A DNA stretch of 57,880 nucleotides, taken from the IMG/VR virus record IMGVR_UViG_3300028043_000002, positions 1-57,880 of that record; one strand, written 5' to 3'. A program made the position numbers and the translations under genes. Every line of letters starts with the position of its first letter. The first letter of the stretch is position 1. Shown in pieces: positions 40,874-57,880 of the stretch. Under the pieces are notes generated by a model that saw nothing but the letters and a program-made list of their open reading frames with translations, ran no database searches and had not been told where the DNA came from. This DNA is from a virus.

Positions 40874-40884
40874 AGGAGGAGCCC

Positions 40885-41463: not shown

Positions 41464-41471
41464 GGTGGAAC

Positions 41472-42208: not shown

Positions 42209-42219
42209 GGAGGAATAAA

Positions 42220-42462: not shown

Positions 42463-42770
42463 AGTCGCTGCCTAACCTAACTTATTGTGAAAAGTGTTTA
42501 CGGCGTGTTGACTGCACAATTTCCCCTGAATGTGTTATTGTGAGGGAGTTATTGGAGTTTACGATTGAAAATCTCAGCTACTCAATTGAAAATGCTTGGG
42601 AGCTAACCCACGATGAGTGGAAAGACTCGGTAAGTGATTATGAGGGGGATTACCTTGCCTTACAAATTCTCTTTGACCAGTTTGGCGTTTCTTCCCTGGG
42701 TAAGGAAATCGAGGAGTTCCGAGGGCATCTAGATTGGCTCAAACAAAGAGATTCTGATGATGGAGGGTAG
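42456..42770 (+). CDS. Helical protein with N-terminal Cys module
   Basis: 104 residues. Module CEKCLRRVDCTISPEC (C11, C14, C20, C26) followed by acidic helices (VRELLEFTIENLSYSIENA, DYLALQILFDQF-like). Same CX2CX5CX5C spacing as the 41741 and 42220 genes. Confidence 0.6.
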   Translation: MLKSLPNLTYCEKCLRRVDCTISPECVIVRELLEFTIENLSYSIENAWELTHDEWKDSVSDYEGDYLALQILFDQFGVSSLGKEIEEFRGHLDWLKQRDSDDGG

Positions 42771-42779
42771 GAGGGAGTG

Positions 42780-43016
42780 ATGAAAAAAGCTTGCAAGAAA
42801 TGTGAACAACGAATTGACTGTATTGTTGCTACTGACGTTCAGGTTTTGACGGTTCTCGTGGATGTATTTCATGATCTTGATCAAATCGACCACGCAGACT
42901 TCCGTTTCAGAAGTTGTGTTGGTGAGGTGGACAAGGTGTTAGACGGGATGTGGAGAACTCTCATTTCTTACTTTACTAAGGTCAACGAAAAATATGAGAG
43001 GAGGACTGACCTATGA
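42780..43016 (+). CDS. Small protein with N-terminal Cys module
   Basis: 78 residues; the ATG at 42780 follows GGAGGGAGTG. Module CKKCEQRIDCIVA (C5, C8, C14), then one helical domain (VQVLTVLVDVFHDLDQIDHA). A fourth Cys is not in the usual place. Overlaps the next gene by 4 nt. Confidence 0.6.
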   Translation: MKKACKKCEQRIDCIVATDVQVLTVLVDVFHDLDQIDHADFRFRSCVGEVDKVLDGMWRTLISYFTKVNEKYERRTDL

Positions 43017-43393
43017 CCAAGAAGAAGAAAGTTTCACCCCCCACCGAAGTTACCTTGCTTGACAAGGTTGTTGGCTACAAAAGCCAACGCGGTAGAAAAC
43101 CCTCAGACCCATCCTCTGTGATGGCTAGGTTTCGGCAAAAGCTCCAAGAGATTCTCGTTGATGCCGTCTCGCGGCAGGTATATGAAGTTCCAGTAAAGGC
43201 AATTGCTGGAATTTTAAGCCGCGAAGGCTTCTTTGATGGCGTTGCACCAGAGAAACGGTATCGTCGGAGTTACAACTACGTTGATCAATCTTATGACCAC
43301 CTTCCTCAAGGGTGGGAGGTAAAGAGAACTGGCATGGGGATTAAACTGGTATACACTGACCCGAATTTTGAGAACTTGCAGACCGAAGAATAA
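43013..43393 (+). CDS. RSYxY-family protein 1
   Basis: 126 residues, paralogue of the genes at 48296 and 50951. Shared order: a short basic linker (RGRKPSDPSSVM), a helix, a second helix, then YRRSYNYVDQSYDHLP. The three share the motif RSY-Y but otherwise differ. The layout (basic N-terminus, two helices, a final motif) suggests a small DNA-binding protein; that is inference. Confidence 0.6.
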   Translation: MTKKKKVSPPTEVTLLDKVVGYKSQRGRKPSDPSSVMARFRQKLQEILVDAVSRQVYEVPVKAIAGILSREGFFDGVAPEKRYRRSYNYVDQSYDHLPQGWEVKRTGMGIKLVYTDPNFENLQTEE

Positions 43394-43408
43394 TAAAGGA
43401 GGTTCAAG

Positions 43409-43705
43409 ATGAGTAAACTAATGGATCAAATGGTTGTTAAGGAATGGTTTCAGGGAGCTTTTCATGGAGACTGTGAGCTACCCGTGACGGTCGAGATGGG
43501 TGTAGGGGAAGATGATCCATTCCTCTACTTGACAATAACGATTGACGAAGTTTCCAACCTTGAACTCTGCCTTGAAATTGGTGTTAGTCCCACCCGGGTT
43601 GGGGTTGAAGATGAAACTTATGACTCCTTCGTTCAACGCTTACAAAAGATCGTTGACGCCGTAAAACAAAACGCAATTAACTTTGTTAAGCAAAGAGGGT
43701 ATTAA
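43409..43705 (+). CDS. Hypothetical protein
   Basis: 98 residues. Beta-rich first half (LPVTVEMGVGEDDPFLYLTI) and a helical end (VQRLQKIVDAVKQNAINFVK). AAAGGAGG upstream. A small inverted repeat, GGGTA-TTAAG-TACCC, spans its stop region but lacks a T run. Confidence 0.5.
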   Translation: MSKLMDQMVVKEWFQGAFHGDCELPVTVEMGVGEDDPFLYLTITIDEVSNLELCLEIGVSPTRVGVEDETYDSFVQRLQKIVDAVKQNAINFVKQRGY

Positions 43706-43737
43706 GTACCCCCTTTGATTAAAGGAGGAACCAAAAA

Positions 43738-44028
43738 ATGCCTATGTGGATCCATGAGTATGTGGTAGAGGGGAAATACAACTTTCCGATCGACATGTTG
43801 AGGTACGATGGTTCTTATCCTGCTGACCAAGAGTCGGTCAGTCAAATTGGTCTGGCTGGTGACTTTAGGTATGCCAAGGTCTATGAGGAGGAACACGGTG
43901 CTAGCCCAGTCTTCAAAGTCCGCCTGAAACACATTACCGACTCTAAGCAGTGGGCCCCTACAGAAGGCAGGTGGAACTCGTTCGGCTGGAAGATCAAAGT
44001 AGGTAGTCTCGCCGCCAGAAAATATTAA
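43738..44028 (+). CDS. Hypothetical protein
   Basis: 96 residues. MWIHEYVVEGKYNFPIDMLR and GRWNSFGWKIKVGSLAARKY. AAAGGAGG upstream. No Cys and no known motif. Confidence 0.5.
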   Translation: MPMWIHEYVVEGKYNFPIDMLRYDGSYPADQESVSQIGLAGDFRYAKVYEEEHGASPVFKVRLKHITDSKQWAPTEGRWNSFGWKIKVGSLAARKY

Positions 44029-44056
44029 AAGTCCCATCCAAAAAAGGAGGAGCCAC

Positions 44057-44269
44057 ATGTCACTACTTTGCGTGGAGTGTACTGCGAGGGAGGCCCATCT
44101 GATGGAGCATGTTTCAAAGAGGAGGTTGTGTTGGAGCTGTTTTCGAACAGCTGGAAAACCTCCAGCAACTATCATCCGCATCCCCCAGGTTTTCTCCGAC
44201 ATGGAAGAACCATCGTTCGTGGTGTCCGTCATTCCAGAGGGGATTAACATCAGGTTTGAACCGAAGTAA
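44057..44269 (+). CDS. Small zinc-ribbon protein
   Basis: 70 residues. CVECTAREAHLMEHVSKRRL ending in CWSC: two CxxC pairs separated by a basic helix, then beta strands. AAAAAAGGAGGAGCC upstream. Confidence 0.55.
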   Translation: MSLLCVECTAREAHLMEHVSKRRLCWSCFRTAGKPPATIIRIPQVFSDMEEPSFVVSVIPEGINIRFEPK

Positions 44270-44280
44270 GGAGGCAGCAA

Positions 44281-44592
44281 ATGGCTGGCGTGGCAATTGT
44301 CCTTTTCTTTGATCGGGTGAGGTTTGAAAATCCCCGGGGGCGCGCTCCAAGGGAGATCAAAGATTTCATGGAGGCCTTTGTTAAGACCGTTGTAGAGCCC
44401 GCATTTAAGGAGGAGTTCGGTGAGGCCTTTGACTATGCGATGGTGGATGCCAGATACGATAGCGACCCTTGGGACGTTGACCTTCCCAACGAATGTGATA
44501 AGTTGAGGGAGATCTATGCCGAAGAGTACGTCAAGTGCGAAAACTGCATCCACCGGATCGATTGCATTGTCAGCCCCCACCGGTCTAAATGA
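44281..44592 (+). CDS. Protein with C-terminal Cys module
   Basis: 103 residues. Globular N-terminus (VAIVLFFDRVRFE, EFGEAFDYAMVDARYD) and at the very end CENCIHRIDCIVSPH (C86, C89, C95). No fourth Cys; the gene ends 8 residues later. Confidence 0.6.
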   Translation: MAGVAIVLFFDRVRFENPRGRAPREIKDFMEAFVKTVVEPAFKEEFGEAFDYAMVDARYDSDPWDVDLPNECDKLREIYAEEYVKCENCIHRIDCIVSPHRSK

Positions 44593-44613
44593 AAAAGGAA
44601 GGAGGTAGTTGGG

Positions 44614-44913
44614 GTGGAAATTCTAACTTGTCGAACCTGTGGAAAGGAGTTTGATCTGGATGCTAAACGAAAAATCATTAAAGCCGGTTATCGCGACCAA
44701 TGTGCATCTTGTTCTACAGCTTCTGGTGATCACCGACAGAAGTACCTTGGACGCCCTGGAGCAACTAATAAGGGCTCCAACATATCAATTTTCCGGACCT
44801 CACTCGACTTCGTCCGCCATGTACTACGTCTCGAGAACCGTCGCGGACGTACGGCTAATCTCGATTTCAAAAGCGTAGTTAAAGCTTCCGAGAAGGAGGA
44901 TGAACTGAAATGA
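44614..44913 (+). CDS. Cys-rich small protein (GTG start)
   Basis: 99 residues. CRTCGKEFDLDAKRKIIKAG and CASCSTASGD form a likely zinc knuckle pair. The rest is basic and polar. GGAGGTAGTTG upstream. Ends inside the ribosome site of the next gene. Confidence 0.5.
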   Translation: MEILTCRTCGKEFDLDAKRKIIKAGYRDQCASCSTASGDHRQKYLGRPGATNKGSNISIFRTSLDFVRHVLRLENRRGRTANLDFKSVVKASEKEDELK

Positions 44914-45116
44914 TGAACCTAGTGGAAGTCCTCGCAAAGCAGCGTGTCAAGGAAGGACTGTGCGTCATTTGTGGCAAAGAGCCTTTCAAGGTGACAGCTA
45001 AGTGTGAAGAGGACACTTTTACCTTTTGCTTTACGTGCTGGGAGCTCCTCCGCGAGGAGCTTCGCAGACGTGGGGTGAGTGACGACGATTTTAAAGATAT
45101 TAAATTGTTGCAATAA
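44910..45116 (+). CDS. Small zinc-ribbon protein
   Basis: 68 residues. CVICGKEPFKVTAKCEED then CFTCWELLREELRRRG. A double CxxC ribbon with an acidic end. Its ribosome site AAGGAGGATGAACTGAA is repeated almost exactly before 45142 and 47049. Confidence 0.6.
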   Translation: MMNLVEVLAKQRVKEGLCVICGKEPFKVTAKCEEDTFTFCFTCWELLREELRRRGVSDDDFKDIKLLQ

Positions 45117-45141
45117 AAGAGGAAAAGGAGGATGAGCTGAA

Positions 45142-45579
45142 ATGAAAAGACTTGCGTTCGAAGTACAGGTGTCCCGCACCTTTACAATCAAAGGTGGTGA
45201 CTACTGCGAGAATTGGGAGGCGTTTAAGAGGGAGCTCGGTCTCCTACATGACAATGGAAGGTGGGAAATACCCTCAAAGTTTGATAGGGGCCGCACTCCA
45301 GAGGGCCTCTTTGCCGACGAAGCTATCTCTGAACACGTCGAGCTTCGAGAGTTTACCCGACACCTTGGATGGGAGATCTATGCTGCTCATGAAGAGTGCC
45401 CCAATTGTTTTTGTGATGATACTTTTTATTTCTCTCTTACCCAAGATGGAACAGGGAATCTTGATCCCCTGGCGAAGTGTGGTAATTGTGGCCTCGAGAA
45501 ACTTTTTTGCAATTTAACCCCAGGCTCGTCGGCTAGGTGTGTCGCGTGCCTACACCGAGTTCGATGCATAGTGAAATAA
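45142..45579 (+). CDS. Zinc-ribbon protein with C-terminal Cys module
   Basis: 145 residues. Ribbon at C86, C89, C113, C116, then the module CVACLHRVRCIVK (C133, C136, C142) at the very end. N-terminal half is beta/alpha. Similar order to the 40110 gene. The module Asp is Arg here. Confidence 0.6.
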   Translation: MKRLAFEVQVSRTFTIKGGDYCENWEAFKRELGLLHDNGRWEIPSKFDRGRTPEGLFADEAISEHVELREFTRHLGWEIYAAHEECPNCFCDDTFYFSLTQDGTGNLDPLAKCGNCGLEKLFCNLTPGSSARCVACLHRVRCIVK

Positions 45580-45591
45580 AGAGGAGGATGA

Positions 45592-46077
45592 ATGACTAAA
45601 ACCCTTGATGTAGGTTGTGGTTGGGAGGATGAGCTTTGGTTTCCAGGAGCTGATCTTTGTGATGGAGTCTTTTCGGAGCTTATCGAACCTATCGACACTA
45701 AAGGCCGGACTGTCTATCCCCAATATATTGACCACAGGAATCCGAGACTTCCCGTCGAGGATGGGACATACGATCTCATTTGGTGTGGATCAATGTGGGA
45801 GGGGATAGTTGATGAAGGTGATAAGGTAATTCTCGAAAAGGAGTTCTATCGCCTTCTCAAGCTCGGGGGACGCCTACTTCTTCGTGATACATTTTTCATC
45901 GAAGCTGGAACTCCTGAATGGGATCTTGATGTAAAAAGGGGGATCGTGCAAAGGGAAATGTCACACTTCCCCGAAGAGAGATGGCATGGAATGTCATACT
46001 TTGATGTTGATGTTGAAGTAGATGGAGCTGGTAAATGCGTCTACTTTTTCTTACACCTTGAGAAACGAGGAGGATGA
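45592..46077 (+). CDS. Class I SAM methyltransferase-like protein
   Basis: 161 residues, AGGAGG 6 nt upstream. LDVGCGWEDELWF near the start is motif I (SAM binding), PVEDGTYDLIWCGSMWEG resembles the motif around the catalytic strand, and EFYRLLKLGGRLLLRDTFF matches the following helix and strand. Short for the family, so perhaps a minimal fold. Substrate unknown. Overlaps the next gene, also methyltransferase-like. Confidence 0.7.
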   Translation: MTKTLDVGCGWEDELWFPGADLCDGVFSELIEPIDTKGRTVYPQYIDHRNPRLPVEDGTYDLIWCGSMWEGIVDEGDKVILEKEFYRLLKLGGRLLLRDTFFIEAGTPEWDLDVKRGIVQREMSHFPEERWHGMSYFDVDVEVDGAGKCVYFFLHLEKRGG

Positions 46078-46079
46078 AA

Positions 46080-47033
46080 ATGATTTTGGAGGTGGGGTGT
46101 GGTTTCGACTGCGGGGTTCAAAGCGATGTTTCGGTCGACAATGGAAGAGATTGGGACGGCAACTTTGATTTAATGATTCAGCAATTGAGGGAGGTAGAAT
46201 GTGACCTTTCAAAGCTTGTGATAGCTGATGTCAATAAACTTCCTTTCAAAGACCGGGTTTTTGATAAGGTTACCTCAAGTCGCTTTATTGGTCGAAACCC
46301 CAGAGCCGGAGCCTGGAAAGAGTTAAACAGGGTTCTTAAAGAGGGGGCGACGATCGAAGTGTTCTCGGCTCATAATGATGTGATCTTTCATCCTAATCGA
46401 CTAATCGGAATGTTAAAATACTTTCCTACGTTTCACTCCGAAGTCATCTATTTGCCTTCTAAGCAAGACTACAAACAGGGGGATCTAATTATGTTCGATT
46501 TGGTTTTATATAAAGAAAAGAAGTGGATCGATCCCCACATCGAAAATCCCGAAGCAATTAGAACTGCAATTCCTTATCAAGGAATTGTTGACATCCCTGA
46601 AGGTTTGTTGGATACAACCATTATTACTACGCCTCTATCTGAAGAGGGTTCCCATTTAACCTTTTATGGGGGGGTTTCACCTGCAACCATTGAAGCCGCT
46701 ATCGGTTCAAACCTTACGTGGGCCTGGATGGGAATTGCTCATGAAATTGGACATTTAATGCTTGAACAGATTGGGATCCAACCTCCTCCCCACGAACCTT
46801 TAATTCAAGTTTCAGAGTTGACCTGGATTGAGCCTCACCTCGATAAAGCGCGGGCAAGGCAGCTCCAAATTAATGAAGCTCTTGCTTGGGCTGTTGCAGC
46901 TAAGATTTATAAGGCAGCAGATTGGGACTGGAGGCGTGCCCAGGAGATGATAAAAACATATCACTGTGAAGATCCTGATGAGTATTACAGGGTGGCATTA
47001 AGAAGCTTGCTCCCTGAGGCCTTTAATAAATAA
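46080..47033 (+). CDS. Methyltransferase-like and HExxH metallopeptidase-like fusion
   Basis: 317 residues; the ATG at 46080 is preferred because AGGAGG abuts the earlier ATG. The N-terminus LEVGCGFDCGVQSDVSVDNG has a SAM-binding look, and KELNRVLKEGATIEVFS matches the class I methyltransferase core. The C-terminal part has AHEIGHLMLEQIG (HExxH, about residues 220-224) with later Glu/Asp that could complete a zinc site. The join of the two activities is unusual. Either domain may be inactive. Confidence 0.65.
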   Translation: MILEVGCGFDCGVQSDVSVDNGRDWDGNFDLMIQQLREVECDLSKLVIADVNKLPFKDRVFDKVTSSRFIGRNPRAGAWKELNRVLKEGATIEVFSAHNDVIFHPNRLIGMLKYFPTFHSEVIYLPSKQDYKQGDLIMFDLVLYKEKKWIDPHIENPEAIRTAIPYQGIVDIPEGLLDTTIITTPLSEEGSHLTFYGGVSPATIEAAIGSNLTWAWMGIAHEIGHLMLEQIGIQPPPHEPLIQVSELTWIEPHLDKARARQLQINEALAWAVAAKIYKAADWDWRRAQEMIKTYHCEDPDEYYRVALRSLLPEAFNK

Positions 47034-47048
47034 GGAGGATGAACTGAA

Positions 47049-47327
47049 ATGGAAGAAATAGGGACTGAGTACTGTGAAATTTGTAGGAAGTTTGGAGAGG
47101 AAATTGATAACCCCATCACCATGGAAGTCCAGCACCTCGGAGATGGGAACATCCAGATCTATCTTGGGGGGTTACACATTCATGTAGGAAATCAAAAAGT
47201 AATGCTCGACCCATGTTGTGTGTGGGTAAACAATGTTAAACCATTTTATGAAGCTTTCAAGAGTTTCTTACCAGTCCAAGAGCTGAATGATTATGAGCAG
47301 CGCTTGGCTCAACTAACATCGCAGTAG
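47049..47327 (+). CDS. Small protein with one CxxC
   Basis: 92 residues. EYCEICRKFGEEIDNPITME at the start and later LDPCCVWVNNVKPFY give Cys that could bind one metal. Same ribosome-site cassette as 44910 and 45142. Not recognised. Confidence 0.5.
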   Translation: MEEIGTEYCEICRKFGEEIDNPITMEVQHLGDGNIQIYLGGLHIHVGNQKVMLDPCCVWVNNVKPFYEAFKSFLPVQELNDYEQRLAQLTSQ

Positions 47328-47335
47328 GAGGGAAA

Positions 47336-47554
47336 GTGACAATTCATGATGCTTTACGTGCAGTGGTGGCTGAAGCCCCAACCCACAAGGGCTTCATAGG
47401 TTATGCTAAGGCTTATGCATTACGGGCGTTGACTGACCGTATGGAGGGCGAAGCCTTAGAAAGAAACATTTTGTACATCCTTGGCAACTTGGCAGCGTGG
47501 CGCGGTGGGCGAGCCAGAGAAGTGAAGAAAGTTTTAAAATCTTTCAAACCTTAA
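47336..47554 (+). CDS. Helical hypothetical protein (GTG start)
   Basis: 72 residues, AGGAGGGAAA upstream. Helical: LRAVVAEAPTHKGFIGYAKA and GEALERNILYILGNLAAWRG. Basic end. Not recognised. Confidence 0.5.
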   Translation: MTIHDALRAVVAEAPTHKGFIGYAKAYALRALTDRMEGEALERNILYILGNLAAWRGGRAREVKKVLKSFKP

Positions 47555-47563
47555 GGAGGTGTC

Positions 47564-47788
47564 ATGGAAGACCTTGAAATTCATCCAATGGGAATTTGCT
47601 TCACAGAAACTGGTCCTATCATTACCGTTGCTCTCACCGAATTTATCTCCATCACCGACAGGTTTCCCAAATTCAAAATCCGGAAAAATCCCAATATTGC
47701 AAACCCAACCTGGAATCCCTTGGGATGGGAAGCTCATTGGGAGGATGGTGAAACCACAATCATGCTTGTGATTTACCAGGAACCCTAA
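47564..47788 (+). CDS. Hypothetical protein
   Basis: 74 residues, AAGGAGGTGTC upstream. LEIHPMGICFTETGPIITVA, ending in beta strands (WEDGETTIMLVIYQEP). The overlapping frame at 47559 has no ribosome site. Not recognised. Confidence 0.5.
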   Translation: MEDLEIHPMGICFTETGPIITVALTEFISITDRFPKFKIRKNPNIANPTWNPLGWEAHWEDGETTIMLVIYQEP

Positions 47789-47797
47789 GGAGGTGCT

Positions 47798-48025
47798 ATG
47801 AAAACCGAATTAATATTGGCAGCGCGGTACATTTTCGAAATGAGGCAGTATGGTATGGACGAGGAGGCCGCCTTGGAAGCCCTTGAGGGAGAGTTTCGTG
47901 TGCCTACCGGCGAGTTAAAGGAGATTGCTGATAAGTACCGCGTAATGGCAAAAGAGTGGTACGAGATTGGGGATGCCAAGGTCTGCGCACTTATCGCTTC
48001 CTGGCTCCTAGAGGAACACCTTTAA
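47798..48025 (+). CDS. Small helical protein
   Basis: 75 residues, AAGGAGGTGCT upstream. All-helical pattern (ARYIFEMRQYGMDEEAALEA, GELKEIADKYRVMAKEWYEI). Could be a small domain that binds a partner; not recognised. Confidence 0.5.
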   Translation: MKTELILAARYIFEMRQYGMDEEAALEALEGEFRVPTGELKEIADKYRVMAKEWYEIGDAKVCALIASWLLEEHL

Positions 48026-48057
48026 ACCGGTATAAATGTAAAAAGGAGGAGACACAA

Positions 48058-48267
48058 ATGAAAGAGTTGCTCGAAGTTACGTTTCATGACGGTACAGGTG
48101 GCAGGAAGAGTATTCAATTGGATACGACGCGTGAAGCATTTGCTAAGTTACTGGGTTACGCGTCGTATGAAGAGTTGCTCGAAGTCCACGGCTCTTGGGA
48201 TCAAGCTCTCGACTACTGGAAGTCACAGTGGGAAGGCATGGGTCTCGAGGTCAAGTTGAATCGCTAA
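48058..48267 (+). CDS. Small protein with internal ELLEV repeat
   Basis: 69 residues from the ATG after AAAAGGAGGAGACACAA. MKELLEVTFHDGTGG and YEELLEVHGSWDQALDYW share the coding block GAGTTGCTCGAAGT, a small internal duplication. Function unknown. Confidence 0.5.
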   Translation: MKELLEVTFHDGTGGRKSIQLDTTREAFAKLLGYASYEELLEVHGSWDQALDYWKSQWEGMGLEVKLNR

Positions 48268-48295
48268 CCTTTAACCATAAAAAGGAGGAGCCACA

Positions 48296-48670
48296 ATGGA
48301 ACAGAAGCAGTTCGTGGATGTGGATTTTGACAATCTCTTAAGTGGAGTGAAGGACTACGAAAAAGGGATTGGCAAAGGTGGACGCGCTCGCGCGAGCGTG
48401 ATGTCCGCATATCGGGAAACCCTGATTCAGCTGTTCAAGCATGCTGAATCGGTGGGCGTCACCGAGATGGAAGCTTCTGCTATCGTGCGGAAGCTGGCGG
48501 ATGTCTTTCTCGGCGGCGATTACCGTCGTTCGTACAACTACCTCAACGATTGCGCCAAGAAGGGCCACATTCCGCCCCATTGGAAATCCGAGGGGAAGGA
48601 AGAAGGAAAGAAACTGAAGACCTTCATCTACGTGGGCGAGCAGCCCCCTGAAGATGAAGTTGAGGAGTAA
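48296..48670 (+). CDS. RSYxY-family protein 2
   Basis: 124 residues, paralogue of 43013 and 50951. GKGGRARASVMSAYRETLIQ (basic linker, helix), METEASAIVRKLADV-like helix, then YRRSYNYLNDCAKKGHIPPH. Codons are GC-rich and look well expressed. A perfect TTCG hairpin follows at 48681. Probable small nucleic-acid-binding protein. Confidence 0.6.
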   Translation: MEQKQFVDVDFDNLLSGVKDYEKGIGKGGRARASVMSAYRETLIQLFKHAESVGVTEMEASAIVRKLADVFLGGDYRRSYNYLNDCAKKGHIPPHWKSEGKEEGKKLKTFIYVGEQPPEDEVEE

Positions 48671-48680
48671 ACCTTTAACT

Positions 48681-48700
48681 GGGGGAGCTTCGGCTCCCCC
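48681..48700 (+). terminator. Perfect UUCG hairpin terminator
   Basis: GGGGGAGC-TTCG-GCTCCCCC, an 8-bp stem with a UUCG tetraloop, followed by AAACTTTTCT. Lies 10 nt after the stop of the 48296 gene. The next gene starts 13 nt further with no clear ribosome site. Confidence 0.7.
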
Positions 48701-48713
48701 AAACTTTTCTCAC

Positions 48714-48977
48714 ATGACAACCACAACCTTCTCCTATAAATGTGTGGACTGTGGAACCGTCTTCTTCAAACCCCAACCACCTGACTGTGAGTTTTGTAAT
48801 CAACGCATTGAGTGCCTGATCTCCTTTGAAGAGGGACCACCATGTGAAGAGGCGCTGTGCTTTACTTGCAAAGAGTCTCTTGACCATTTGTGGGCTTTCC
48901 CCTGTAACCGTTGTGGCAAGCTCTGTCCTTCGGGTCAAGAGCTTTGTGATGACTGTTTAGCTGTGACATCTTTTTAA
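48714..48977 (+). CDS. Multi-Cys protein with internal Cys module
   Basis: 87 residues with about 12 Cys. A ribbon half CVDCG (C10, C13), then the module CEFCNQRIECLIS (C25, C28, C34, C44), then CFTC, CNRCGKLC and CDDC. Start is unclear: a continuous frame runs back through the terminator to 48654, and neither start has a good ribosome site. Probably multiple zinc sites. Confidence 0.55.
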   Translation: MTTTTFSYKCVDCGTVFFKPQPPDCEFCNQRIECLISFEEGPPCEEALCFTCKESLDHLWAFPCNRCGKLCPSGQELCDDCLAVTSF

Positions 48978-50950: not shown

Positions 50951-51457
50951 ATGGAACAGGCAGTCAAACAGATTACATTGGATGAGGTGATGTCGAGTGG
51001 TGGACAACGTGGGGGCACTGGCGCGATGAGTGCCTTCAAAGCCAACCTGATTCACATCCTGAAGCAGGTTGCTGACCCGGCCAACAAGGGCAAAGTTCGT
51101 CAGCTGAAAATTGACGGAAAGGATTGCCCCGCGGTGCCGGTGGGGAAAGTGGTCAACTCTCTCAAGCAGCTGTTCGTTGGTGGCACGATGGACACCTGGA
51201 AAGACGGGCAGCGGTACAACCGCAGCTACCGTTACCTCAAGGGGTTCGCTGATCAGGGTACCCTCACGAAGTTGGGTGTGGTGATCCTGAGCAAGGACAA
51301 CCACGACCTGCCCGACAATGTCAACCACATCGTTATCGTGGATTCCAGCAAGCTTCTGGGCAAAACGGAGATCACCACCAAATCGGCTCCCAAGGCCGAG
51401 CCTCCCAAGGCTGAGACCCCCAAGGCGGCGCCGGAAAAGGCTTCTGATCTCGCCTAA
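50951..51457 (+). CDS. RSYxY-family protein 3, beside the iteron array
   Basis: 168 residues, third paralogue of the RSYxY family. GGQRGGTGAMSAFKANLIHI, later YNRSYRYLKGFADQGTLTKL, then a Pro/Ala/Lys tail (PKAEPPKAETPKAAPEKA) like that of basic bacterial DNA-binding proteins. GC-rich codons, own promoter and terminator. The neighbourhood makes it a candidate binder of the iterons, but nothing in the sequence proves DNA binding. Confidence 0.6.
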   Translation: MEQAVKQITLDEVMSSGGQRGGTGAMSAFKANLIHILKQVADPANKGKVRQLKIDGKDCPAVPVGKVVNSLKQLFVGGTMDTWKDGQRYNRSYRYLKGFADQGTLTKLGVVILSKDNHDLPDNVNHIVIVDSSKLLGKTEITTKSAPKAEPPKAETPKAAPEKASDLA

Positions 51458-51469
51458 CCACTAACCAGA

Positions 51470-51498
51470 GGGGGGCACTTAGTGCCCCCCTTATTTTT
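51470..51498 (+). terminator. Rho-independent terminator
   Basis: GGGGGGCAC-TTA-GTGCCCCCC followed by TTATTTTT. Nine bp stem, 13 nt after the stop of the 51457 gene. Clean terminator; one of the best in the window. Confidence 0.85.
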
Positions 51499-51568: not shown

Positions 51569-51778
51569 ATGAGAACACTATCTGAGGAAGAAATTGAGGC
51601 ATATGTAGCCTCCCAGGGCAAAGAATGCCCCTGGTGTAAAAGCCGGAATATCGAAGAGACAGGCTTCTTGGACATGACCGACCAATGGACATCAAACGAA
51701 ATGAAGTGTCTGGAATGTAAAGCCCTTTGGCATGCCCTCTATGTTCTGATCCATGTCATCTACGAGCCAGATGAGTGA
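51569..51778 (+). CDS. Zinc-ribbon protein
   Basis: 69 residues. CPWCKSRNIEETGFLDMTDQ and later CLECKALWHALYVL: a treble CxxC ribbon of the kind common in phages. Its end overlaps the microprotein region, so it may be transcribed with it. Confidence 0.6.
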   Translation: MRTLSEEEIEAYVASQGKECPWCKSRNIEETGFLDMTDQWTSNEMKCLECKALWHALYVLIHVIYEPDE

Positions 51779-51803
51779 TCGTATTAGCACTGGAGTGGGA
51801 CAA

Positions 51804-51953
51804 ATGATATTTTTTATTCTAACCCGGACTATCCAAAACATAGCTTTCATGGGAACTCCACACCCAAGTGCACGTTACGTTGTGGGTTGTGGTTACGCAG
51901 TGAGACTCTATAAACATGAAGGCACCATGGGTGAAAGTTTTCTATATTATTAG
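51804..51953 (+). CDS. Microprotein, MIFFILT type
   Basis: 49 residues. The ATG at 51804 (GGAGTGGG upstream) gives MIFFILTRTIQNIAFMG, matching the start of several later microproteins (MIIFVLTS, MVTLFILTS, MVIILTK). A longer in-frame start exists at 51753 or 51771. First member of the array. Confidence 0.5.
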   Translation: MIFFILTRTIQNIAFMGTPHPSARYVVGCGYAVRLYKHEGTMGESFLYY

Positions 51954-52101
51954 CCAAGAGGGAACTACCTTCTACAAGGGAATCATACCAACCAATTCTT
52001 GGCAGAACTTTCGGGAATTCTTTGTCATGTCCCAGAATATAATACACCTTAAGCGGCTAGATTCGATGTTCTTCAGGAAGTGGTGTGATGTTCCTTATTA
52101 A
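51916..52101 (+). CDS. Microprotein, VKVFYIIS type
   Basis: 61 residues. VKVFYIISQEGTTFYKGIIP matches KTFYIRISEF and KVFYITAKVM of later members. Overlaps its neighbours by tens of bases. Ribosome site weak. Part of the array. Confidence 0.5.
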   Translation: MKAPWVKVFYIISQEGTTFYKGIIPTNSWQNFREFFVMSQNIIHLKRLDSMFFRKWCDVPY

Positions 52102-52318
52102 ATGCAGCCCTGACCTCTATGGTAGGGCCTTTAAGTATATTGCCAAGTCGGGAAACTACAAACGACTTGGCCATCACTTTATCTACATAGTTGGAAGAGA
52201 TCCACGGTCACTAAAGGGAGTAGCTGAGATGAAAGCGATTGGATCAGCACTTGGATGGAGTAAGCCACCCCCCGGAACTATATACAATCACGGAGCAGCA
52301 TGGCATGGACCGGGATAG
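52088..52318 (+). CDS. Microprotein, LYG type
   Basis: 76 residues from the ATG at 52088. FLIKCSPDLYGRAFKYIAKS has the same core as VIVVTKVESDLYGGIFRV of the 54078 gene. C-terminal half is basic and Gly-rich. Overlaps the previous and next frames. Confidence 0.5.
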   Translation: MFLIKCSPDLYGRAFKYIAKSGNYKRLGHHFIYIVGRDPRSLKGVAEMKAIGSALGWSKPPPGTIYNHGAAWHGPG

Positions 52319-52422
52319 TCACTAAAATATTTGACCACCAAAAATCAGGGGGTGAATTTGAAACGTTTGTTCACAAGAAACTTGGTAATCTTCATTTTAA
52401 CCAAACATCCGTGTACCGGTAA
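52300..52422 (+). CDS. Possible 40-residue microprotein
   Basis: WTGIVTKIFDHQKSGGEF then a His-rich end. It has the array's length but only part of its signature. Overlaps the next frame, which fits the array better. Confidence 0.3.
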   Translation: MAWTGIVTKIFDHQKSGGEFETFVHKKLGNLHFNQTSVYR

Positions 52423-52483
52423 CCGAGTATACTACATTAGTTGCAATTGCTACTTCGTATCGATACCGAGTCTACAATGGTAA
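52352..52483 (+). CDS. Microprotein, degenerate tandem copy
   Basis: 43 residues, GTG start with CAGGGGG upstream. LVIFILTKHPCTGNRVYYIS is a diverged copy of TLFILTSHPGTGNQVYYIT of the next gene; both continue with a Y-F strand. The DNA of the two is clearly alike over about 75 nt, a tandem duplication. Confidence 0.5.
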   Translation: MNLKRLFTRNLVIFILTKHPCTGNRVYYISCNCYFVSIPSLQW

Positions 52484-52632
52484 CTCTTTTTATTTTAACC
52501 AGCCATCCAGGCACCGGCAACCAAGTATATTATATTACCCAACAAGGCGTGGTTTGCAATCGTTACTTCGTATACTCGTCTGGCACCCTTAAAAAACTTG
52601 CGGGTCTTGGTCGTTTCTTTGTGACGCAATGA
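52477..52632 (+). CDS. Microprotein, LFILTS type
   Basis: 51 residues. VTLFILTSHPGTGNQVYYIT then NRYFVYSSGTLKKLAGLGRF. The ATG overlaps the previous stop (ATGGTAA). The cleanest member of the tandem pair. Confidence 0.5.
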   Translation: MVTLFILTSHPGTGNQVYYITQQGVVCNRYFVYSSGTLKKLAGLGRFFVTQ

Positions 52633-52769
52633 AAACCTTTTACATTAGGATTTCGGAGTTCGCTTCCCTTTATGCCGTCGCGGACGCGATCTACCTTTTT
52701 GCTCACCCAAAAGTCTATCGTGCGGAGGGGAATCGTTGGCGAGAAATTGGCAAACAACCTTCTTCGTAG
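52629..52769 (+). CDS. Microprotein, TFYIRIS type
   Basis: 46 residues, ATGA overlap with the previous stop. KTFYIRISEFASLYAVADAI then YRAEGNRWREIGKQ. Shares the FYI start and the LY-x3-I block of the family. Confidence 0.5.
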   Translation: MKTFYIRISEFASLYAVADAIYLFAHPKVYRAEGNRWREIGKQPSS

Positions 52770-52894
52770 TTTGTGGTGTAGAGTCTAATTTCTATGATGC
52801 CGTCTTTACTATAAAGGGTTACACTTGGAGGACACTCTCCGCCTTGAGTGCTTGGCACGACGCACTGTTGATCCTTTATGTGTCAAATGACTAA
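52736..52894 (+). CDS. Microprotein, FFVVCG type
   Basis: 52 residues, TTG start with GCGGAGGGG upstream, a strong site inside the previous gene. TTFFVVCGVESNFYDAVFTI is close to VTKVESDLYGGIFRV. Shows the family core E-S-x-x-Y-x-x-x-F. Confidence 0.55.
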   Translation: MARNWQTTFFVVCGVESNFYDAVFTIKGYTWRTLSALSAWHDALLILYVSND

Positions 52895-53048
52895 GGTCTT
52901 TTACATCACCGCCAAAGTTATGCATATCTTTCTAAAAGCGGATCAGGTGTACAGGTTTGTGAACCCAACCTCAGAAAACCGTTACTTGTTGTTGGTTTAT
53001 GGAGGAGGAGTGCCAACTATTAGAATGGTGAATAATTATGGCCACTGA
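52887..53048 (+). CDS. Microprotein, VFYITAK type
   Basis: 53 residues from the ATG at 52887; an earlier in-frame ATG is at 52878. TKVFYITAKVMHIFLKADQV. Ends past the start of the next gene (overlap 11 nt). Confidence 0.5.
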   Translation: MTKVFYITAKVMHIFLKADQVYRFVNPTSENRYLLLVYGGGVPTIRMVNNYGH

Positions 53049-53397
53049 TTTTAGTCGTATTTGGGGTGTAGATAAGGTGCAGCTACATGAAAAGCACTTA
53101 GTGGTGATTACTAAACCTATCTATATGCAGCGCAAATTTTGGGGATTTCGGGGGGTGAGGTTAAAGTTGACACTTAGAAGAGATGGTGTAGATTTCTGCT
53201 CCCTGAAAAGCAACAAGCAACTGGGTAGTCATGATCACCCCTCTTTGTGGTCCGATATGGTCTGTCTGGGAAATCTGACCGATGGCTATTTGAGGGCTAC
53301 GCGGGAAGGAGATTGGCAACTCGCAGTTATCTTGGTTATGAAAATGCTTGATTGGGGCAGCTGCAAGCCACGGGAGAGCAGCCATTGGTATTGGTGA
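53038..53397 (+). CDS. Larger member of the microprotein region
   Basis: 119 residues. HLVVITKPIYMQRKFWGFRG then a cysteine at about 54, ending WGSCKPRESSHWYW. Basic and aromatic. Overlaps both neighbours. Not clearly in the signature family; may be a two-unit fusion. Confidence 0.5.
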   Translation: MATDFSRIWGVDKVQLHEKHLVVITKPIYMQRKFWGFRGVRLKLTLRRDGVDFCSLKSNKQLGSHDHPSLWSDMVCLGNLTDGYLRATREGDWQLAVILVMKMLDWGSCKPRESSHWYW

Positions 53398-53399
53398 TC

Positions 53400-53546
53400 A
53401 TGCTCGTTAAGTGGGAAACTTTTGTTGAACTGTTTCCTGTTCGAAGTATTTTTTGGTGGTACCGTATGAATGAGGTGCCATTTGGGAGTTGTTGGGGTGT
53501 AGCACTTGTCAACAATTTTAACCGACTTGAGGAGGTAGAGACATGA
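53400..53546 (+). CDS. Microprotein, WETFVE type
   Basis: 48 residues; GTG at 53394 or ATG at 53400. LVKWETFVELFPVRSIFWWY. Aromatic, ends with EEVET overlapping the next start by 4 nt. Confidence 0.45.
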   Translation: MLVKWETFVELFPVRSIFWWYRMNEVPFGSCWGVALVNNFNRLEEVET

Positions 53547-54076
53547 AGTTGCGACAGTACATTCCGGAAGAACTTTGTGAGAAGTGTGAGAAGCGTATAG
53601 ACTGCATAACCGAGGTGGTTGACAGCATACCCACTCTGGTGAAAGTGGGCCCCGATACGTGCTGTGTCTTGGCTAAACCTTTGACGGTCTTTGTTCCTAG
53701 TGCTAACCTACCTTATGATATCCAGGTGCCTTCCGCAGTGGAGATTGGTTCACCAGGAACTCTAGAGTGTGCGGCCGCTTTGACCCAAGAGGAGCTCAAT
53801 GCTTTGATTGAGTGGGGCATTGAGAAGTATTTCGATATGGTCCTAGGTAGCCAAGACATTAAGATGCCCAAAACTGTTGCGGAGCTACGAACTGCAGGCG
53901 ACGGCACCAACCATATTGTGGGTATGATTGCTTTGATCGCGCGGGCGTTTATGGAGGGGAATTTCAAGATCTACCTGAAATTTCCGGAAACTCATTTGCA
54001 TCCTAAGGCGCAGCTGGGTTTGGTGGAGATGCTTCGTAGTTTGTTGGAGCCGCCACCAAAGAATGTGGCACTCTAA
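53543..54076 (+). CDS. Protein with Cys module and OLD-ATPase-like C-terminal motif
   Basis: 177 residues. Begins with the recurring module CEKCEKRIDCIT (C12, C15, C21). The C-terminal part has PETHLHPKAQ (148-157), the conserved block of OLD/AAA ATPases (EPExHLHPxxQ), within YLKFPETHLHPKAQLGLVEM. No Walker A or other ATPase core is seen, so this may be a fragment or a mimic. The first residue of the usual EPE is Lys-Phe. Odd mix of a module family and a defence-like motif. Confidence 0.55.
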   Translation: MKLRQYIPEELCEKCEKRIDCITEVVDSIPTLVKVGPDTCCVLAKPLTVFVPSANLPYDIQVPSAVEIGSPGTLECAAALTQEELNALIEWGIEKYFDMVLGSQDIKMPKTVAELRTAGDGTNHIVGMIALIARAFMEGNFKIYLKFPETHLHPKAQLGLVEMLRSLLEPPPKNVAL

Positions 54077-54077
54077 A

Positions 54078-54239
54078 ATGCATGTCATTGTCGTCACTAA
54101 GGTTGAATCCGACCTTTATGGGGGGATCTTCCGAGTTCAAGACATTGTCAGTGGCAAATTTTGTGAGGTCTATATAAGTCATGATCGTGAGGGCATACTG
54201 GTATACCACGTCTTTCAGCGGCAAATGTTTATGAGATAG
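54078..54239 (+). CDS. Microprotein, VIVVTK type
   Basis: 53 residues. HVIVVTKVESDLYGGIFRVQ is the clearest statement of the family core, close to 52088 and 52736. Rest: VYISHDREGILVYHVFQ. Starts right after the previous stop. Confidence 0.55.
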   Translation: MHVIVVTKVESDLYGGIFRVQDIVSGKFCEVYISHDREGILVYHVFQRQMFMR

Positions 54240-54277
54240 GGTAGTGAGATGGACAAAAAGAGTGGAGAGGGGCAAAC

Positions 54278-54499
54278 ATGAAACTGCGTTCAAGGTTTTT
54301 GGGTCAAGGGTTTTTTCTGGGGGTTTGGTTTGCGTGTCTGCTCTTGGCGACGATCCAGGATTGGCTGGGACTAGAAGGTTATATTTCACATATACGTGCT
54401 TATTGGATTCACGTGCCCTGGTGGTTTTGGCTGCCGATATGGGGCTTGTGGCTAGTTGTAATGTGTGGGGCAATTCGTTTGGCGAGAATGCCCGATTGA
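54278..54499 (+). CDS. Small membrane protein
   Basis: 73 residues, ATGA overlap with a short upstream frame (MDKKSGEGQT). Two hydrophobic segments (FFLGVWFACLLLATI and WWFWLPIWGLWLVVMCG). Not in the signature family but inside the array. The overlapping frame at 54244 is less likely. Confidence 0.5.
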   Translation: MKLRSRFLGQGFFLGVWFACLLLATIQDWLGLEGYISHIRAYWIHVPWWFWLPIWGLWLVVMCGAIRLARMPD

Positions 54500-54547
54500 G
54501 GCGGTGGACTCCATGAAAACAATTGTTAGTTTTCGGCTTTTAGAAGA

Positions 54548-54700
54548 ATGATAATATTCGTACTCACCAGCAAAGAGGTGTTCTTACGTTACAATGTTCG
54601 GTGGATGAGTGTTTTACCTTTTCATACCGCCGCGTTCCATGTTTCCTCAGACAAGGGAATTGTAGATTTGTTGTCAATTCTTCGGGAGGCTTGGAGGTAA
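54548..54700 (+). CDS. Microprotein, IIFVLTS type
   Basis: 50 residues, ATGA overlap with a 12-codon frame (MKTIVSFRLLEE). MIIFVLTSKEVFLRYNVRWM then VSSDKGIVDLLSILREAW. A good family member with a full-length second half. Confidence 0.55.
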   Translation: MIIFVLTSKEVFLRYNVRWMSVLPFHTAAFHVSSDKGIVDLLSILREAWR

Positions 54701-54701
54701 A

Positions 54702-55277
54702 ATGACCACCTTGCAGCAATTTTTGCAACATGACCCCTTGTTGGTGCGGCATTACTTGTCAGCACCAGAAACCAATCCTGATGACTACCCCTGGGAGGTG
54801 CACACAATTCAGCGGCAATACTCCCAAGGTCAACTGACTTTGTGTGTTGTCGCTGGCGTAGAATTTTCCCCACATCACGATGTGGAAGCCTTTGATGGTG
54901 AAACTTTAACTGTTATGGTGGGAGAACGTATCGTACAAATTCGCCGAAAGGGTGGGAGGGGAGCTAGAGGTTATGGCATTAGTGAAATTGCTAGGGAGCT
55001 TGGTGTGTCCAGGCAACGGGTACATCAGAAGGTTAAGAAGTGCCAAAATCCCTATGTGAAGTTAAAACGAGGCCCTCGAAGCCCCCACGGGAGTAAGACA
55101 CCGATAGTTAAAGTTAGTGAACAGCTAGTGCCTGTCAAGAGAATGTTGACTGTGACCGTGTTGCGGCTACGGTGGCAATGCCCACAATGTGGTCACCTCA
55201 ACGGAATCAGGAAAATGACTGATAATCAGCGGTTTTCTTGCCAAAAGTGCTTTAAGAGGGCTAGGTTAGTTAGATGA
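54702..55277 (+). CDS. Helix-turn-helix and zinc-ribbon regulator
   Basis: 191 residues. GISEIARELGVSRQRVHQKV (residues about 88-107) is a helix-turn-helix like those of MerR/sigma-type regulators. The C-terminus has CPQCGHLNGIRK and CQKCFKRARLV, a zinc ribbon. N-terminal part is a beta domain with PHHDVEAFDGETL. Probably regulates the array or nearby operons; the target is unknown. Overlaps the next microprotein by 4 nt. Confidence 0.65.
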   Translation: MTTLQQFLQHDPLLVRHYLSAPETNPDDYPWEVHTIQRQYSQGQLTLCVVAGVEFSPHHDVEAFDGETLTVMVGERIVQIRRKGGRGARGYGISEIARELGVSRQRVHQKVKKCQNPYVKLKRGPRSPHGSKTPIVKVSEQLVPVKRMLTVTVLRLRWQCPQCGHLNGIRKMTDNQRFSCQKCFKRARLVR

Positions 55278-55387
55278 CATTCATTGTGGTAACTGGAGCT
55301 CCATTGCTAGTGAGGTTGGCTCGGGGGTTTCGTCTCTTTGAATCAGGCGGTAAAACTTTGCTGGCATGGGCTTTTTGGACAGTATGA
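55274..55387 (+). CDS. Microprotein, FIVVTG type
   Basis: 37 residues, ATGA overlap. MTFIVVTGAPLLVRLARGF and a short end. Shares the FIVVT start of the family; truncated after the second block. Confidence 0.5.
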   Translation: MTFIVVTGAPLLVRLARGFRLFESGGKTLLAWAFWTV

Positions 55388-55515
55388 CCCCGATGATCAT
55401 CATACTCACTAAATCGGAGCGGATTTGGGCTCAACGTAACTTCGTTTTAGTCACTCATTTATGGGATGGACTCAGATTTTTGTTGTGCCCTCTTCAGGGT
55501 AGTGACATTTGGTAA
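55384..55515 (+). CDS. Microprotein, IIILTK type (repeat copy 1)
   Basis: 43 residues. PMIIILTKSERIWAQRNFVL. 91 bp (55392-55482) are repeated nearly exactly at 55815-55905, inside another microprotein. Start overlaps the previous stop. Confidence 0.55.
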   Translation: MTPMIIILTKSERIWAQRNFVLVTHLWDGLRFLLCPLQGSDIW

Positions 55516-55905
55516 GGGAGGGTTTTATAATGGCTCTAATAAGAGAAGATTGCCACGGTATCTATGTGAAGGCGGATGGTAGTATCTTTCGCCCACAGGT
55601 TAACCGCTATCATGGCCACTTAAAAAATGTGGCCTCTAAGTATCGTGCTGGAGAAAAGGTGAGAGCTCGGCATATCCCCCAAACGACAAGAGCCAAAGTA
55701 GGAGACGAATTTTGGTTTGGTCACGGCAGTTATGATTTTTGGGACCCCGCAGTAGGGAAATTCATTCCCATTCCTTCAGAGAAGGTGTGGGATACTATAG
55801 GAGCTGAATACTGTGATGGTCATCATACTTACTAAATCGGAGCGAATTTGGACTCAACGCAAATTCGTTTTAGTCACTCATTTATGGGATGGACTCAGAT
55901 TTTTG
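55392..55905 (+). repeat. 91-bp direct repeat, two copies
   Basis: Copies at 55392-55482 and 55815-55905 match at about 93 percent. Each codes for the first 30 residues of a microprotein. After it the copies diverge at once (LLCPLQGSD versus QLSPDWELF), giving a sharp breakpoint. The interval between the copies is unique sequence. Confidence 0.8.
55530..55835 (+). CDS. Hypothetical protein, donor of shuffled segments
   Basis: 101 residues from the ATG after AAGGGAGGG. LIREDCHGIYVKADGSIFRP, HLKNVASKYRAGEKVRARHI, and the end PSEKVWDTIGAEYC. Two parts of it (55627-55651 and 55778-55799) reappear fused at 55971-56018 in the next gap. Function unknown. Confidence 0.5.
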   Translation: MALIREDCHGIYVKADGSIFRPQVNRYHGHLKNVASKYRAGEKVRARHIPQTTRAKVGDEFWFGHGSYDFWDPAVGKFIPIPSEKVWDTIGAEYCDGHHTY

Positions 55906-55968
55906 CAGTTGAGCCCCGATTGGGAACTTTTTCCTGCGTGGTGTGAATTACCAGATTGGGAGGATTAA
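55816..55968 (+). CDS. Chimeric microprotein (repeat copy 2)
   Basis: 50 residues. The first 30 (VIILTKSERIWTQRKFVL ...) are the 55384 protein. From residue 31 the sequence LSPDWELFPAWCELPDWED is the C-terminus of the 56039 protein. The join is at 55906-55910 in the DNA. A clear fusion of two array genes. Confidence 0.65.
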   Translation: MVIILTKSERIWTQRKFVLVTHLWDGLRFLQLSPDWELFPAWCELPDWED

Positions 55969-56235
55969 AGATGTGGCTTCCAAGTATCGTGCTGGCAGAG
56001 AAGGTGTGGGATACTATATTGAACTACAGGAGGACAGAATGAAAACTAAGAAGGCTGCTTTGGGGCCTCCAGGGAATCAGGTGGTGTTTGAAGTAGTGAG
56101 TTGTGAATCTTGCCCATATGGGCCGCTCATCCCCGATCAACAGTATTGTTTAAAATCCGATATGAGGCCTCTGAGCCCAGATTGGGAACTTTATCCTGAG
56201 TGGTGCGAATTACCAGATTGGGAGGATTAAAGATG
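55910..56235 (+). repeat. 64-bp direct repeat, two copies
   Basis: Copies at 55910-55973 and 56172-56235, differing at a few bases. Each holds the end of a reading frame (LSPDWEL-P-WCELPDWED) and the next ribosome site GGGAGGATTAAAGATG. The first copy is fused to the 91-bp repeat. The DNA between (55971-56018) is a joined pair of fragments from the 55530 gene. Confidence 0.8.
56039..56230 (+). CDS. Small Cys protein with WCELPDWED end
   Basis: 63 residues from the ATG after AGGAGGACAG; the longer GTG start at 55943 covers rearranged sequence. FEVVSCESCPYGPLIPDQQY, C at 37, and the end LSPDWELYPEWCELPDWED, the source of the chimeric end at 55816. Cys spacing suggests a metal site. Confidence 0.55.
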   Translation: MKTKKAALGPPGNQVVFEVVSCESCPYGPLIPDQQYCLKSDMRPLSPDWELYPEWCELPDWED

Positions 56236-56706
56236 GATCCAGTTTGTGAAATTTGTCACCGAGAGTTTTTGTTAGACCAGCAGCTGCCCCAAGAGATCAA
56301 GAATGTTCTAGTTCTGGATCTTATAGGAGCTGCAGGTTTGGATTTCTACGACCATTGGGACAAAAGCTACCAACAAAATGGCGCTACTACTCTGGAGGTG
56401 GGCGAGGATGAGAAGTATGCCATAGCCAAAATTTCCCTCGACCTACTACCTAAGTTCGGTACTGTGTGTGGTGACGTCCCCAACAGCCCTTTCACTAAAG
56501 AGGTTATCGCTTTTCTGCGGCGGCGGGGCATTACTTTCGTGTTGGCCATTGTCTCCCAACTGCAGCCCGAAATTGCTTCATTGGCAGTCGCCATCGCTAA
56601 TGAGGATCATGGTATGAAGTTCGAAGACATGGTGAGTGGTAGGGGTGGCTCCCTTCGCTGGGATCCTAGCCGAGTGGTTGGCTGGGCGGTTTATGAAAGT
56701 GAATAG
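56233..56706 (+). CDS. Zinc-knuckle-start hypothetical protein
   Basis: 157 residues from the ATG after GGGAGGATTAAAG. CEICHREFLLDQQLPQEIKN, then KNVLVLDLIGAAGLDFYDHW and RRRGITFVLAIVSQLQPEIA. Fold not recognised. The ribosome site is inside the 64-bp repeat. Last complete medium-sized gene before ClpB. Confidence 0.55.
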   Translation: MDPVCEICHREFLLDQQLPQEIKNVLVLDLIGAAGLDFYDHWDKSYQQNGATTLEVGEDEKYAIAKISLDLLPKFGTVCGDVPNSPFTKEVIAFLRRRGITFVLAIVSQLQPEIASLAVAIANEDHGMKFEDMVSGRGGSLRWDPSRVVGWAVYESE

Positions 56707-56899
56707 CAAAGATACTAATTTTACATCACGGCTTGTAATAATCTTTTCGAACTCCTGCTCCCTATGGTGGCCTATTCGCTGTACTTCAAACCCCCATGTC
56801 TTATGGTGGTTTGTTGACGCCACCGTGCGACAGGAACGTAGTTTAGTTCTTTTCGTTGACGGCAGTGGAACGCTTTTACCCTTGGTAAAAAGGGATTAA
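56693..56899 (+). CDS. Microprotein-like gene before ClpB
   Basis: 68 residues overlapping the end of the previous gene. SRLVIIFSNSCSLWWPIRCT has the hydrophobic start of the family after an N-terminal extension; the rest (VLWWFVDATVRQERSLVLFV) is aromatic. Ends 18 nt before ClpB. Confidence 0.45.
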   Translation: MKVNSKDTNFTSRLVIIFSNSCSLWWPIRCTSNPHVLWWFVDATVRQERSLVLFVDGSGTLLPLVKRD

Positions 56900-56917: not shown

Positions 56918-57880
56918 ATGCGCTTTGACAATTTAACTCTGAAAGCCCAGGAAGCCTTACATGGAGCACAAGAGTTGGCCCGTCGTCTGAATAACCCTCA
57001 GATCGAGACGGCTCATCTGCTGCGCGAACTCTTGGCTCAGGAAAAGGGCCTCATCCGGCCCCTCCTGAAAAAACTCGAAGTTGATCCCCAGAGAATCATC
57101 CAGAAATTGGAAGATCGGCTTACCCGCCTTCCCAAAGTGAGCGGCGACGCCCAGGTCTATCTTTCCCCCAGTCTCAATAAAGTCCTGGATGAGGCCTTTA
57201 AGCAGGCTGGCGCTATGCGGGACGAGTACGTCTCCACTGAGCACCTCTTTTACGGGATGTCAGTGGATAAAAGGAGTGATACCGGCAAACTACTTGCAAA
57301 TGCTGGAATCACCTCCGAGACTATTCTTCAGGCTCTGGTAGAGCTTAGGGGCTCCACTCGTATCACTGACCAAGATCCTGAGGAAGAGGTTCGACCCTTA
57401 GAGGTGTTTGGCCGAGACCTTACGGAGGCAGCTCGAGATGACAAGCTCGATCCGGTCATTGGTCGAGATGGAGAAATTCGACGTATCATCCAGGTTCTCA
57501 GTCGGCGCACCAAGAACAATCCAGTCTTGATCGGTGAGGCGGGAGTAGGAAAAACTGCTATTGTGGAAGGATTAGCCCAGCGCATCGTCAACGGTGATGT
57601 GCCTGAGTCTCTGAAGGACAAGCGCTTAGTAGCCTTAGATCTGGGATCTTTGATAGCGGGTACCGCGTTTCGCGGGGAGTTCGAGGCCCGCTTGAAAGCA
57701 GTGCTGAAAGAAATCACCGAGTCAAAAGGTCAGATTATCATGTTCATCGACGAGCTCCACACCCTAGTAGGAGTGGGGGCTGCAGAAGGTTCTATGGATG
57801 GCAGCAACATGATCAAGCCCGCATTGGCACAAGGAGTACTCCGCTGCGTGGGGGCTACTACTTTAAATGAGTACCGCAAG
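56918..57880 (+). CDS. clpB: ClpB disaggregase, N-terminal part (cut by window end)
   Basis: 321 residues visible, no stop in the window. [20 protein letters not shown] is the Clp N-domain; ETAHLLREL follows. The first AAA+ domain has GEAGVGKT (Walker A, 206-213), [24 protein letters not shown] (Walker B, 275-285) and the start of the sensor region ([13 protein letters not shown]). Close to bacterial ClpB throughout, which with DnaK rescues aggregated protein. GGAGG upstream. It may be a recently captured host gene or the edge of host DNA. Confidence 0.95.

Follow-up and report, generated by a model that had tools for sequence, protein, structure and literature searches.

A putative hypervariable island of small, duplicated genes in a 57,880-base virus record

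We analysed a virus record of 57,880 bases (the window) and found that its right-hand part carries, on the + strand, an array of tiny genes that is a birth-and-death cluster. About 11-12 of the frames are homologous in their N-terminal core, several are visibly duplicated, and the duplicates are constrained at the protein level. The array is absent from the sister phages, one of which, G001, carries other genes at the equivalent site. We tentatively read the region as a hypervariable accessory island, one operon-like unit grown by birth-and-death, with host takeover or counter-defence as its likeliest role.

The shared N-terminal signature

The run of tiny + strand genes extends from after gene 50951-51457 and a strong terminator to before the ClpB start at 56918 (Table 1). 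An earlier note, made from the sequence alone, had described about fifteen microproteins here that open with hydrophobic residues followed by T or S, and all the peptides it quoted were found. We defined this signature as [VILFYM]4-7-[TS]-[KSRGAENQ] near the start codon. On the + strand of 51.5-56.9 kb, 11 frames carry it, against 0.47 +/- 0.67 (maximum 3) in 300 dinucleotide shuffles, and the minus strand of the same interval carries none. The array thus stands far above shuffled sequence, the comparison that the note had proposed. Seven signature matches in the window pass an SD filter. Other viral DNA totalling 1.6 Mb (about 110 fetched loci, some overlapping one another) gave a background of 13 matches, no locus contributing more than one. 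One set of loci, mostly of general MoxR-like ATPases, was used as background only.

Since the pattern had been seen before testing, we ran a left-out test with real phage ORFs. Each member and its near-duplicate were removed from the profile, and 678 SD-bearing ORFs from three sister phages served as controls. In this test for one paralogous family within the window, 10 of the 15 members scored above all 678 controls and 11 of 15 above at least 99.8% of them. The 6-residue core alone did not separate m3, m6 and m18 from the control ORFs, and on that core their membership appears weak. MAFFT alignments of the whole member set were unreliable, so the statistics are based on the ungapped core and on pairwise scores. 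The latter reached p<0.05 in 23 of 105 pairs, compared with 2-12 in 12 control sets, and four paralog pairs are firm: m15/m16, m4/m5, m6/m8 (shared stretch ADAIYLFAHP/ADQVYRFVNP) and m7/m11. Beyond these four, the putative paralogy rests on a short core first picked by eye.

Taken together, the shuffles, the left-out profile, the pairwise scores and the background density bear out homology rather than chance for the core of about 11-12 frames. Non-members are interspersed in the array (at 53543, 54278, 54702, 55530, 56039 and 56233), m9 and m10 are doubtful members, and m4 is probably decayed. Only m7 and m11 match a second proposed block, [ES]-S-x-[LF]-Y-x3-F, exactly, while m3 fits it loosely (SPDLYGRAF). 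Nucleotide identity in the core was 0.460, no more than the 0.453 +/- 0.012 given by random synonymous recoding. We therefore rejected a DNA or RNA signal; the shared constraint acts on the protein.

Table 1. Features of the array region. Control counts refer to the 678 sister-phage ORFs of the left-out test; GTG and TTG start codons are given in brackets.
Feature	Coordinates	Strand	Observations
Intrinsic terminator	51468..51492	+	Ends upstream gene 50951-51457; upstream boundary of island
Zinc-ribbon-like protein, 69 aa, non-member	51569..51778	+	Island's first gene; CxxC pairs in translation; Lar-like Pfam match E=0.0044, below cut-off
m1, MIFFILTR..., 49 aa	51804..51953	+	Above all 678 controls; GGAG upstream
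m2, (GTG) MKVFYIISQ..., 56 aa	51931..52101	+	1/678 controls as good; best start GTG 51931; AAGG upstream
m3, MFLIKCSPDLYGRAF..., 76 aa, weaker member	52088..52318	+	Core not significant (67/678); resembles m11 (p=0.027)
m4, ...VIFILTKHPCTGNRVYYIS, start uncertain	52358..52483	+	Probably decayed copy of m5; DNA repeat D3 with m5, 80%; codon score -0.246
m5, MVTLFILTSHPGTGNQVYYIT..., 51 aa	52477..52632	+	Paralog of m4 (p=1.7e-10)
m6, MKTFYIRISEFASLYAVADAIYLFAHP, 46 aa	52629..52769	+	Paralog of m8 (p=3e-4); 4-nt ATGA overlap with m5
m7, (TTG) ...TTFFVVCGVESNFYDAVF, 52 aa	52736..52894	+	Paralog of m11 (p=6e-4); 0/678 controls; GGAGGGG upstream
m8, MTKVFYITAKVMHIFLKADQVYRF, 53 aa	52887..53048	+	11/678 controls as good; paralog of m6
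m9, 119 aa, doubtful member	53038..53397	+	Other size; HPSLWSDMVCLG motif
m10, (GTG) MIMLVKWETFVELFP..., 50 aa, doubtful member	53394..53546	+	4-nt overlap at either side
Anchor gene, non-member	53543..54076	+	Cys tag CEKCEKRIDCI and PETHLHPKAQ-type motif as in AAA_15/OLD-like ATPases; AAA_15 match E=0.012, below cut-off
m11, MHVIVVTKVESDLYGGIF, 53 aa	54078..54239	+	0/678 controls; paralog of m7
Membrane protein, 73 aa, non-member	54278..54499	+	Long hydrophobic segments in translation; no family
12-codon frame MKTIVSFRLLEE, possible member relic	54513..54551	+	4-nt overlap with m13
m13, MIIFVLTSKEVFLRYNVRW, 50 aa	54548..54700	+	0/678 controls
HTH and C-terminal zinc-ribbon protein, 191 aa, putative regulator	54702..55277	+	Sub-cut-off matches
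m14, MTFIVVTGAPLLVRLARGF, 37 aa	55274..55387	+	0/678 controls; ATGA overlap at either side
m15, MTPMIIILTKSERIWAQRNFVLVTHLWDGLRFL, 43 aa	55384..55515	+	0/678 controls; best start ATG 55384
101-aa protein, non-member	55530..55835	+	Repeats D4, D6; fragments copied at 55967-56018
m16, MVIILTKSERIWTQRKFVLVTHLWDGLRFL and C-terminus SPDWELFPAWCELPDWED, 50 aa	55816..55968	+	0/678 controls
63-aa Cys protein	56039..56230	+	C-terminus common with m16; AGGAGG upstream
157-aa protein, non-member	56233..56706	+	Codon score 0.126; no family
m18, ...RLVIIFSNSCSLWWPIRC, 68 aa, weak member	56693..56899	+	55/678 controls as good; similar to m14 (p=0.009)

Gene packing, duplication and decay

Start-to-stop frames cover about 96% of 51,569-56,899 on the + strand. 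The note had described most frames as overlapping by 4-40 nt; in our measurement, neighbouring frames overlap by 4-34 nt in 14 of 24 junctions and by exactly 4 nt in six, several of these being of the type ATGA or GTGA. SD-like sites precede many array starts. The terminator bounding the island upstream has an 11-bp stem with 8 GC pairs and a T tail, and its folding energy is -22.4 kcal/mol (z -4.8). Promoter-like sites in the array were at chance level, with none standing out. We infer an operon, translational coupling and the time of expression, as well as the members' fold and function. GC content is 0.46 in the array and 0.525 in 56918-57880, where the contig ends in the start of a bacterial-type ClpB, which may be a phage auxiliary gene or a junction with host DNA.

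By codon score, the array frames mostly rank above non-coding frames but fall below ordinary genes. Three duplicated stretches contain 26 changes, of which 16 hit third codon positions in the proposed frames (p=0.003), and in each stretch the proposed frame is the one with the fewest residue changes. Between m4 and m5, 10 of the 16 DNA differences lie at third positions. In the recent duplicates, most variation is thus at third positions.

At the DNA level, repeats D1-D4 and D6 within the array record tandem duplication. D1 joins m15 and m16 at 93% DNA identity, and D2 joins m16 to 56172-56235 at 94%, in the same reading frame as 56039..56230; since m16 carries both, it is a mosaic. Copies range from 93% identical to barely recognisable within 5 kb, and the array offers a compact site for following the birth, diversification and loss of small phage proteins. 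Most pairs have near-zero similarity and no sister phage has the array, which agrees with the description of its genes as rapidly diverging.

Database searches, neighbouring genes and sister phages

The array members had no match in Pfam, NCBIfam, PHROGs or PDB, and eight of them had none in Pfam at E<=1. No relatives of the members were found in the viral contigs and phages searched, and the DNA of the array region had no match in phages. AlphaFold2 models (m11 with four others; m8 with m6) were poor, with pLDDT of 52 and 69 and pTM of 0.33-0.34. The core of m9, HLVVITKP, was equalled by 0 of 678 controls, but its position is internal. Its HDHPSLWSDMVCLGNL resembles the HP...CLG of E2-like proteins, a likeness without database support; neither m9 nor m10 had family matches.

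Proteins of DUF7336 (PF24024) start MKVFVVTSGEYSDYxIxxVFS, and the opening strand and S-D-Y turn of the members look much alike by eye. Membership in this family was rejected, as no match was found at E<=10 across the window (cut-off 25-bit). Elsewhere in the window, the protein at 31434-31886 starts MNKLYVVKAYNGETYEDYDVRPIMAFST and is DUF7336-like by eye, with no profile match.

The regulator that the note had placed at 54702 is plausible as an HTH and zinc-ribbon protein, with HTH matches around 88-115 and zinc-ribbon matches around 152-187, but every Pfam match lies below its cut-off. Among viral contigs and phages, only a 21-residue zinc-ribbon match was found for it. Loci L003-L005 were dropped as relatives, the match being a low-complexity tail only.

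Relatives of the window's phage were found via the VWA-domain protein at 38851: the phages G001 (88 kb), G002 (41 kb) and G003 (40 kb), and a MAG contig (L020). The MoxR/VWA pair and further genes are common to the window's phage and its three sisters, and ribonucleotide reductase is common to G002 as well. The search for similar arrays in related phages, recommended by the note, was run on these three sisters, and none has the array. In G001 the order is a 50951-type gene, a long hairpin with a T-run, other small genes, and a 53543-type gene. The last (L012:7296-7802, - strand) is 48% identical to the 53543 protein, and this pair carries the Cys tag and PETHLHPKAQ motif like the end of an AAA_15/OLD protein, the remainder of the ATPase being absent. 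Searches of G002 and G003, either of which may be a fragment, gave no 53543 homolog; the equivalent site is therefore established in a single sister, G001. Since G001 keeps the flanking genes and the terminator with different small genes between them, we view the region as an accessory island that is hypervariable and has grown through tandem duplication.

The genes at 43013-43393, 48296-48670 and 50951-51457 are three paralogs of one family that is present in multiple copies in the sisters too. A Cys tag, C-x2-[CH]-x2-R-x2-C-[LI], is often N- or C-terminal on otherwise dissimilar small proteins, with 9 carriers in the window (40529-48977 and 53543-54076), 34 in G001 (L009-L013), 12 in G002 (L014-L016) and 1 in G003, always on one strand. 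A Pfam scan of two carriers or near-carriers gave no match. The tag has the look of a zinc-binding element common to many accessory proteins, and this finding may matter as much as the array. In G003, a 796-aa protein (L022, about 6365-8755) that resembles phosphoenolpyruvate synthase by eye is surrounded by small genes.

Proposed role and alternative readings

In our tentative reading, the island of this little-known phage lineage would be read as one operon-like unit starting after the terminator, and would have arisen as copies of one small-protein gene were tandemly duplicated, fused and left to decay. The founder would have encoded a small soluble domain, about 45-50 residues long and best conserved in its N-terminal strand, VFIVT[KS]. 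Where stop and start codons overlap, translation is probably coupled, so that many divergent versions would be made simultaneously, each binding its own, or a rapidly changing, host protein. By analogy with SPO1 and archaeal viruses, we propose host takeover or counter-defence as the likeliest function because the island is hypervariable, consists of small duplicated genes and is dispensable in relatives. Should the members be effectors, the array would offer a ready panel for new host targets or counter-defence proteins on one scaffold. A bolder form of the idea, which we regard as unlikely, is a self-made library in which fast-diversifying coupled copies of one scaffold each bind another host target, a panel of binders encoded in the genome and renewed at one site through duplication, fusion and decay.

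The similar sizes, the common N-terminal strand and the tandem order with 4-nt overlaps would also suit subunits of one hetero-oligomer, such as small beta domains arranged in a ring or sheet, built from coupled frames. This seems improbable to us, as the very strong divergence, the decayed copies (m4 and the mini-frame) and the absence in sisters fit independent, dispensable genes better. The decayed copies could instead point to a region made mostly of evolutionary debris, in which duplicated, frame-shifted leftovers under weak selection surround few working genes. The rearranged copy at 55967-56018 and the 12-codon frame at 54513-54551, like m4, do look like leftovers, and the codon scores are intermediate; however, the frames are intact, have starts that often follow an SD-like site and cover 96% of the DNA, and protein is better conserved than DNA between duplicates, which leaves this reading little probability.

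Convergence of unrelated small proteins that open with a hydrophobic strand followed by T or S would restrict homology to the four clear pairs. Most pairs indeed have no significant similarity outside the core, and the core fails to separate m3, m6 and m18 from controls, but the signature almost never occurs among the 678 sister-phage ORFs or in the 1.6 Mb of other viral DNA, and we consider this explanation improbable. The hydrophobic starts and mostly basic character of the members might suggest small membrane-active or toxin-like peptides. Against this, the common hydrophobic run is only about 6 residues long, mean hydropathy is near zero in most members and no antitoxin-like partner pattern was seen, making such a function very improbable.

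Returning to host takeover or counter-defence, we compared the array with known clusters. Archaeal virus early anti-defence gene clusters include Acr paralogs and an Aca regulator (PMC11065993). Like them, the array is a cluster of small orphan genes that includes an HTH protein. It differs from them in that its promoter-like sites do not exceed chance, searches of Pfam, NCBIfam, PHROGs and PDB gave no Acr or Aca homolog, and no shared early regulatory sequence was found. Small-gene clusters with host-shutoff roles are known, as in the 26-gene host takeover module of the Bacillus phage SPO1 (PMC6873191). Both the SPO1 module and the array group small phage genes in one region, whereas the array members are mutual paralogs from tandem duplication, and the likeness is one of arrangement rather than of established sequence similarity. 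For a single transcription unit, which is putative in the array, tiling of the frames and a terminator boundary were observed.
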